Below the pieces are notes generated by a model, which was not told the DNA's origin, ran no database searches, and worked only from the letters and a program-made list of their open reading frames with translations. Shown in pieces: positions 59,958-60,674 of a DNA stretch of 64,000 bases. The first letter of the stretch is position 1, and every line of letters starts with the position of its first letter. Source of the stretch: Balneola sp. (lineage in GTDB: Bacteria; Bacteroidota; Rhodothermia; Balneolales; Balneolaceae); contig JANQSE010000006.1 in assembly GCA_028284195.1 (NCBI GenBank), positions 310,001 through 374,000 of the forward strand. The letters run 5' to 3'. Both the position numbers and the translations under genes were made by a program.

Positions 59958-60459
59958 ACATCCCCCGTCATGCTAATCGCATGACACCCCCTTCAAAGGG
60001 GGAATTTTCGGGGCGCATGTATTTTCAGGTCAATCTCAATGTATTAATTATGTATTGCAGATGTTGAAGAACACTGTCTAAATCTTTTTTGATATCCAGA
60101 TCATCAATTCTGATAAAATGAACACCCAGCTTCTCAATTTCTTTTTGCCTTTTTTCGTCCAGAATAATAGCTAGTTCTGAATCATGAGAACTTCCATCAA
60201 TCTCAATAGCTAAATATAATTCATGACAAAAGAAATCAACGATATAGTTTTTTATAGGAACTTGTCGATGGAACTCAACTCCTAGTTTCTTTTTTTGAAC
60301 TTCTTTCCATAAAAGAACCTCGCTTAGGGTACTATTCTTTCTTAGCTCTCTGGCAAGCTGCTTTAATTGAGGATTATATGGAAGAATTTTATTCGGCATT
60401 GAAGTCCCTCTTTGAAGGGGGATGATTAATTTCGTTTAGAAATTAATCCGGGGGGATGT
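59958..60459. mobile_element. 502-bp DUF559 unit with hairpin-bearing terminal inverted repeats
   Basis: Both ends share the 9-bp inverted sequence ACATCCCCC (59958-59966; complement at 60451-60459). Each is followed by an inner hairpin: GTCATGC/GCATGAC at 59967-59985, and GATTAATTTC/GAAATTAATC at 60424-60448. Next comes a CCCCCTT/AAGGGGG-type stem (59987-60002; 60406-60421). So the order end-hairpin-stem is mirrored although the hairpin sequences differ. The only gene inside is the DUF559 nuclease-like frame. No target duplication is evident. Mobility is inferred from the mirrored ends and from the split helicase copy flanking it. Confidence 0.6.
60025..60399 (-). CDS. DUF559 endonuclease-like protein (Vsr/PD-(D/E)XK-type)
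   Basis: A 124-residue protein of the DUF559 family, related in fold to very-short-patch-repair endonucleases. Visible features: the helical front KQLARELRKNSTLSEVLLWKEVQ, the strand VEFHRQVPIKNYIVDFFC, then LYLAIEIDGSSHDSELAIIL, where Asp (VDFF) and Glu-x-Asp (EIDG) stand as the probable catalytic acids, and KRQKEIEKLGVHFIRIDDLD. The start is the ATG at 60399. It is the sole gene of the 502-bp unit bracketed by mirrored hairpin ends. Family members occur in many copies in Bacteroidota genomes. DNA cleavage is inferred from the fold; the role in movement is a hypothesis. Confidence 0.88.
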   Translation of the reverse strand: MPNKILPYNPQLKQLARELRKNSTLSEVLLWKEVQKKKLGVEFHRQVPIKNYIVDFFCHELYLAIEIDGSSHDSELAIILDEKRQKEIEKLGVHFIRIDDLDIKKDLDSVLQHLQYIINTLRLT

Positions 60460-60471
60460 TGTTGCTCTGCG

Positions 60472-60567
60472 AGTAATAAGCAAAGGGCCATTAGTATGAG
60501 CTACTGCTTTTCGTTGTTGCTCATTTAATCCTTTTGGAGCTTTAGATTGGAGTTTGAATTTTCTCAT
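60472..60567 (-). pseudogene. Remnant: diverged copy of the UvrD/PcrA helicase 5' end
   Basis: On the minus strand from ATG 60567 the frame reads MRKFKLQSKAPKGLNEQQRK, then AVAHTNGPLLIT, which matches the first 39 codons of the intact helicase (MKKFKLQPETPQG ... LNEQQRKAAAHTNGPLLI) apart from an eight-codon deletion and several substitutions. The similarity stops just before the Walker A glycines, where unrelated sequence (CTCTGCGAG) and then the element end begin. It is too diverged for a recent duplication. Confidence 0.8.
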
Positions 60568-60580
60568 GCTCGAATTTACA

Positions 60581-60674
60581 CACCCCTTAATCCCCTCTCA
60601 AGAGGGAAACTTGTTGATTGAGTAATATTCTTAATTAAAACGTTCCCCTCCCTGGAGGGGACAGGGGAGGGTTG
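60581..60674. repeat. Intergenic dyad repeat (CACCCCTTAATCCCCTC / GTTCCCCTCC type)
   Basis: Left arm CACCCCTTAATCCCCTCTC (from 60581) contains the small stem CCCTCT/AGAGGG. The right arm (60642-60674) is its imperfect inverse, carrying CCCCTCC/GGAGGGG and ending in GGGGAGGGTTG. About 30 bp of AT-rich sequence separates them. It abuts the valS stop. Its layout, a G/C-rich box next to a stem, resembles the ends of the DUF559 unit. Confidence 0.65.

Follow-up and report, generated by a model that had tools for sequence, protein, structure and literature searches.

The locus examined here raises the question of why a single small gene of the DUF559 family lies between two ends that mirror each other, and of whether gene and ends belong to one mobile element. 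The locus occupies positions 59958-60459 of a 64-kb stretch of Balneola sp. DNA (contig JANQSE010000006.1, positions 310,001 to 374,000), which as a whole we refer to as the window; at this locus, inverted ends, each consisting of a box, a hairpin and a C/G stem, enclose an intact DUF559 gene. Our comparative analysis points, with a confidence that is better than even but well short of firm, to a unit that belongs to a widely distributed family of small selfish elements, similar to the repetitive extragenic palindromes (REPs), with a DUF559 core and inverted intrastrand-triplex ends that the DUF559 protein would recognise and cut.

The ends of the unit

In the purine-motif (reverse-Hoogsteen) triplex, the third strand follows a simple code, with G placed on a GC pair and A or T placed on an AT pair. 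The box of the unit is the purine arm of the stem read backwards, i.e. antiparallel, by this code (G to G, A to A or T), and because of this match an intrastrand DNA triplex should be able to form at each end; the hairpin that differs between the two ends is, as we read the sequence, the linker that would lead to the third strand. A preliminary description had outlined a 502-bp unit with one DUF559 gene and mirrored ends, and its coordinates have proved exact to the base. The components are the following:

59958..59966, minus strand: left-end box GGGGGATGT; the third strand GGGGGAT is set against the purine arm GGGGGAA, read 3'-5' (G:G, A:A/T), with 7/7 positions matched
59967..59985, minus strand: left-end hairpin linker GTCATGC-GATTA-GCATGAC, joining the stem and the third strand
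59987..60002, minus strand: left-end triplex stem CCCCCTTtgAAGGGGG (minus-strand reading)
60025..60399, minus strand: gene of the putative DUF559 nuclease, 124 amino acids, Vsr/EDxHD-like fold (PF04480, E=4.7e-25)
60406..60421, plus strand: right-end triplex stem CCCTCTTtgAAGGGGG, one mismatch
60424..60448, plus strand: right-end hairpin linker GATTAATTTC-GTTTA-GAAATTAATC
60451..60459, plus strand: right-end box GGGGGATGT, third strand GGGGGAT, register judged by eye

The sequence ACATCCCCC has just two exact copies in the window, at 59958-59966 (plus strand) and 60451-60459 (minus strand), and the stems CCCCCTTCAAAGGGGG (59987-60002) and CCCTCTTTGAAGGGGG (60406-60421) are the sole two matches at up to two mismatches, a number that is reached in 0 of 100 shuffles (shuffle mean 0.1). 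When a stem, a hairpin linker and a matching third strand are all required, the left end is the only match in the window, and 60 dinucleotide shuffles of the window yield 0 such folds; the right end escapes this strict rule, as one of its stem pairs is mismatched. The linkers are 20 nt (left) and 29 nt (right) long, each of them being itself a hairpin, and both lie outside the short second loop (1-6 nt, ITxF search) by which intrastrand triplex motifs are defined. The unit carries terminal inverted repeats, as do insertion sequences and miniature inverted-repeat transposable elements (MITEs).

Covariation of stem and box

The comparison of many DUF559 loci has revealed that the box changes along with the stem: the listed stem/box pairs are CCCCTCT/GGGGTGT, CCCCTCC/GGGGTGG, CCCCCTT/GGGGGTT or GGGGGAT, CCCCCCT/GGGGGGT, CCCTCCT/GGGAGGT, CCCTTCCC/GGGATGGG and CTTCCCCTT/GATGGGGT. 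In a test on 142 DUF559 loci, the arm and the box of the same locus score at least 7 in 259/432 cases, while swapping the boxes among loci gives a mean of 72 and a maximum of 85 (30 trials). When only G is used to fix the register, G stands opposite the G positions of the arm in 1053/1058 cases, and opposite the A positions T occurs 208 times, A 113 times, G 35 times and C 5 times. The pattern of a hairpin with a third strand by the G:GC, A:AT, T:AT code, complete at the left end of the window unit, is thereby seen family-wide as covariation. Watson-Crick pairing of the box with the 3' arm gives no signal in the same test, and the direct-repeat and A:C codes are all weaker than the triplex code or absent.

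Across the DUF559 loci there are 31 distinct matched arm/box pairs, with a linker of mostly 3 nt; hairpin-linked ends with other, matching sequences also occur at loci L029 (AGAGAGAG) and L225 (GAGGGATT). The literal combination of ACATCCCCC and CCCCCTT is too narrow a signature, since the arm/box pair varies: being one of at least 31 such pairs, it would miss most of the family in a search. The preliminary description had taken a conserved box and stem around a variable hairpin as a sign that a structure is recognised; structured ends are indeed what we find, but the simple hairpin, treated there as the key structure, gives way to the putative triplex of stem and box, with the hairpin serving as the linker, and box and stem prove to be partners by the triplex code, a relation that is absent from that description. 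In cells, these ends may well fold as triplexes, as their sequences suggest.

Association of triplex ends with DUF559 genes

The arrangement of a DUF559 gene between inverted ends recurs in about 20 phyla; a scan of named genomes gave 80 DUF559 loci, and loci from a plasmid collection add Neisseria, alphaproteobacteria and Deinococcus, with the unit placed between paaD and paaZ. A genome search for the family has false negatives, as it missed E. coli in its control though K-12 has the DUF559 gene ycjD. The upstream and downstream flanks are inverted repeats of each other (score of at least 16) in 43/73 DUF559 loci and in 0/132 control windows located 1.4 kb away, and the density of C-rich hairpins is about 23 times as high next to a DUF559 gene. 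A triplex motif with a short linker is located within 450 nt of 87 of the 122 stand-alone DUF559 genes that have full flanks, and on both sides of 49 of them. The density of the motif is 1.65/kb beside DUF559 genes, compared with 0.066/kb elsewhere in the same loci (25-fold). The preliminary description had named two outcomes that would speak against it, and both were put to the test: a triplex-capable end accompanies most stand-alone DUF559 genes, and empty or solo alleles do occur in relatives.

The genes of Y1_Tnp proteins offer a direct comparison. These proteins, the Y1 HUH transposases known as REP-associated tyrosine transposases (RAYTs), are encoded in all 8 genomes of the genus, which has many of them, and could in principle move the repeats of the same genomes; we regard this as scarcely credible, as the triplex motif occurs in 0/30 Y1_Tnp loci (within 650 nt of the locus centre) and the Y1_Tnp genes have different flanking repeats of their own, and we have rejected them as the mover. 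As a separate observation, the palindromic repeats that flank the Y1_Tnp genes of the genus (L106-L135) apparently belong to several distinct REP families.

The type of stem and box clusters on the tree of 137 DUF559 proteins, regardless of the host phylum: end type A requires 14 changes on the tree (39.3 when shuffled) and end type B requires 9 (22.1 when shuffled), with 0/500 shuffles as low. One clade of 18 proteins, nearly all with CCCCCTT ends, spans Balneolota, Acidobacteriota, Myxococcota, Planctomycetota, Nitrospirota and other phyla. The strict type-A motif is found in 11/148 Bacteroidota genomes, 11/11 of which have a DUF559 gene, as do 78/148 overall (hypergeometric p 6e-4, with the kinship of the genomes ignored). 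Matches of the type-C pair number 7 to 25 in five genus mates of the window's genome and 3 in that genome itself, and there are none in two other mates.

Alleles, solo copies and units inside genes

The comparison of related genomes has revealed several states of the same site. Between pdxJ and era, one genome is empty (G003), two carry a pair of ends without a gene (G004, G006) and three carry the gene between two pairs (G001, G002, G007); each of the two gene-less alleles matches a different one of the pairs that flank the gene in the gene-bearing allele, which is the expected outcome of recombination between direct copies. Between hutU and hutI, 3 genomes are empty, 4 bear the gene and 1 has an internal deletion; the deleted copy (L247, in G002) has kept both gene ends and the pair, i.e. 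it is a MITE-like derivative. Just upstream of era, the window's own genome has a scar (L234) with a remnant of the DUF559 N-terminus and a remnant of the box. Beside valS, seven genus mates have neither the DUF559 unit nor the uvrD duplicate that adjoins it. Two neighbouring features of the window are relevant here:

60464..60567, minus strand: second copy of the 5' end of uvrD, diverged (81% to uvrD) and truncated at the right edge of the unit
60578..60674, no strand assigned: solo (gene-less) pair, with box ACACACCCC, stem 60591-60607, a spacer, triplex stem TCCCCTCCCTGGAGGGGA (60644-60661) and box GGGGAGGG

The solo pair, about 120 bp beyond the unit, carries the only short-linker triplex motif of the window. 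Gene-less copies (here and at pdxJ-era) and empty sites in relatives (at valS, pdxJ-era and hutU-hutI) are what the preliminary description had led one to look for, and they bear out its suggestion of a self-contained unit with a logic like that of REPs and RAYTs. A candidate solo near a YgjP-like gene (L069) has been set aside, as it proved to be nested inside another repeat. The window unit itself is placed between uvrD and the diverged copy of its first ~104-125 nt; the copy ends at the right edge of the unit and the intact uvrD is on the other side. The distance of the duplicate to the relatives equals that of the intact uvrD copy, and the duplicate may represent either a target duplication of unusual length or an old allele.

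The distribution of DUF559 genes is patchy, with several of them in a genome, and some interrupt operons. In one case, a DUF559 domain interrupts HsdR right before the Walker A motif (residues 267-300 of EcoR124 HsdR correspond to residues 273-512 of the query); other units lie in frame within Eco57I-type methylase genes, with their ends translated as PLPSRERGE-like peptides. Such in-frame units occur at differing positions of restriction-modification genes (HsdR, Eco57I-type methylases) at L034:427-3303, L032, L041 and L142, and DUF559 matches in large open reading frames are frequent in Bacteroidota. At L153, L154, L163 and L169, DUF559 is fused in frame upstream of a queG or inositol-phosphatase gene, with translated hairpin peptides in between.

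The alleles could also be explained by homing, whereby a DUF559 homing endonuclease cuts gene-less pairs and repair copies the gene in, the pairs themselves being spread by another route. That pair-gene-pair and pair-only alleles share one site is in agreement with homing, as is the closest characterised fold, which is that of the homing endonuclease I-Bth0305I; however, homing leaves unexplained both the multiplication of the pairs and the tracking of the protein tree by the end type across phyla, and no allele-specific target has been identified. We therefore consider homing unlikely, though it is the strongest of the alternatives.

The DUF559 protein

The AlphaFold2 model of the window protein has a mean pLDDT (predicted local distance difference test) of 94.5. 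Its best matches among solved structures are NGO0050 (PDB 3hrl, Z 15.2), I-Bth0305I (PDB 3r3p, Z 12.3 over 95 residues, root-mean-square deviation 2.5) and Vsr (PDB 1cw0, Z 10.5), and because of these matches DUF559 is, by structure, a Vsr-fold nuclease, as the preliminary description had proposed and as the PF04480 match listed above also indicates; nuclease activity would be expected from the model. The invariant residues of the family are R20, E27, W31, D55, E66, D68 and H72. Most ortholog pairs have a dN/dS (ratio of nonsynonymous to synonymous substitution rates) of 0.04-0.27, and therefore the protein is kept functional. Searches of PHROGs, PADLOC and NCBIfam gave no added function for DUF559.

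The Vsr fold is also what could be expected if DUF559 proteins were cellular enzymes of very-short-patch repair and their flanking hairpins were incidental terminators. For the DUF559 protein VsrA of Caulobacter, which leads to an SOS response when the ScmA methylase is absent, a 2026 paper has proposed a role in mismatch repair, by the very-short-patch pathway (PMC12907096). The patchy genes, several per genome and either interrupting operons or lying in frame within other genes, do not fit this explanation, and terminators have no need of a third strand that matches the stem; we hold it to be very improbable as an account of the family.

E. coli ycjD and the known triplex repeats

Intrastrand triplex motifs are present in many copies in >260 bacterial genomes, and the triplex of the TMECO motif has been demonstrated by circular dichroism and nuclear magnetic resonance; Holder et al. 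(2015) reported that no mobility genes were ever found near triplex motifs (PMC4666352). Our literature search, mostly outside subscription papers, found no published link between DUF559 and triplex repeats. In E. coli, ycjD is present in 3365/5426 genomes, and a triplex motif (stem, TTA linker, GGGTGAGGGG) is located about 165 bp past its stop codon, between ycjD and fabI, while the 3' end of ycjD itself runs into a degenerate C-rich hairpin. A clean empty site has been ruled out for E. coli: where ycjD is missing, sapF is followed by an efflux gene cluster, which leaves no simple empty allele; at the sapF-fabI locus (L255-L258), this is a cluster of major facilitator superfamily and outer-membrane efflux genes.

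The other gene cluster at this site, together with the reported tendency of triplex motif loci in E. coli to rearrange (PMC4666352), would suit a passenger role, in which host replication makes and moves unstable triplex hot spots and DUF559 genes are merely caught between them. We judge this improbable, as the inverted motifs of some 20 phyla enclose one gene family rather than random genes, the end type tracks the DUF559 phylogeny and the protein is under purifying selection.

Proposed mechanism and its weight

The selfish-element reading of the window unit can be extended to a broader proposal, to which we give no more than an even chance: that DUF559 proteins are nucleases with a structural specificity for intrastrand DNA triplexes, that they drive a class of triplex-ended mobile elements found throughout bacteria, and that the triplex repeats which abound in E. 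coli, cyanobacteria and elsewhere are gene-less derivatives of these elements. The recurrence of the arrangement across phyla suggests that DUF559 is the long-missing engine of a very common bacterial repeat class, and the protein would mobilise these repeats by recognising and cutting their ends. In the mechanism proposed for the selfish elements, each end consists of a pyrimidine/purine hairpin and a G-rich third strand that matches the purine arm of the hairpin, with either a short loop or a second hairpin in between; single-stranded or supercoiled DNA would fold into the triplex, the cognate DUF559 protein would recognise this fold rather than the base sequence and would nick or cut beside it, and the pair, alone or together with the gene, would then be copied or moved by repair or replication. 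Gene-less solos would be left behind when flanking pairs recombine, much as solo long terminal repeats are.

Several observations weigh against the selfish-element reading. Inspection of loci by eye revealed no short target-site duplication, and the junctions follow no exact rule that we could find to be shared among them; the boxes face the gene at most loci and face outwards in the window unit; and three genomes (G002, G006, G001) hold many type-C solos without a type-C DUF559 gene. To the question, raised in the preliminary description, of whether DUF559 genes always sit between inverted copies, the answer is that most stand-alone genes have at least one such end and fewer have ends on both sides, and 35/122 have no short-linker motif. 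The association of motif and gene across genomes is phylogenetically non-independent, and shared G-runs supply part of the covariation signal, though the swaps do control for composition.

Triplex motifs (PMC4666352) are now tied to one enzyme family by position, covariation and phylogeny, and the question of their mobility is therefore directly testable with small proteins, including YcjD and the crystallised NGO0050, and oligonucleotides. If the proposal is true, DNA triplexes have a natural biological use, and the compensatory changes of stem and third strand are evidence from evolution that the triplex is of importance in living cells; it also offers an alternative reading for the DUF559 proteins recently proposed as mismatch-repair enzymes.

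Comparison with known systems

The ends of the DUF559 units share with the TMECO and PIT elements (Holder et al. 2015, PMC4666352) a hairpin with a purine-motif third strand, the second loop of the latter being TTA or CCG; new here are the DUF559 core, the inverted pairing, the arm and box types that follow the enzyme, and the hairpin-linked variants. The REP/REPIN-RAYT systems (GTAG REPs, PMC3733652) resemble the DUF559 units in having hairpin pairs in inverted orientation, copies with and without a gene, and one enzyme gene amid its own repeats, but the DUF559 unit encloses a Vsr-fold nuclease instead of a Y1 HUH transposase, and is defined by the third-strand box where RAYT repeats are defined by the GTAG tag. 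The CGTC-tagged REPs form palindromic pairs, in alphaproteobacteria and Bacteroidetes among others, and are reported from 5 phyla with no dedicated transposase known (Di Nocera et al. 2013, PMC3733652). I-Bth0305I, an EDxHD/Vsr-like homing endonuclease, has the catalytic fold in common with DUF559, but the DUF559 unit has no intron or added DNA-binding region, its protein being a single 124-residue domain encoded between triplex ends. The closest solved structure is that of NGO0050 of Neisseria gonorrhoeae, a protein of the same family; the gonococcal DUF559 gene at locus L136, which from family and position is presumably NGO0050 itself, has triplex-capable ends of its own, GGGAGAGAG-CTA-GAGAGAGGG.
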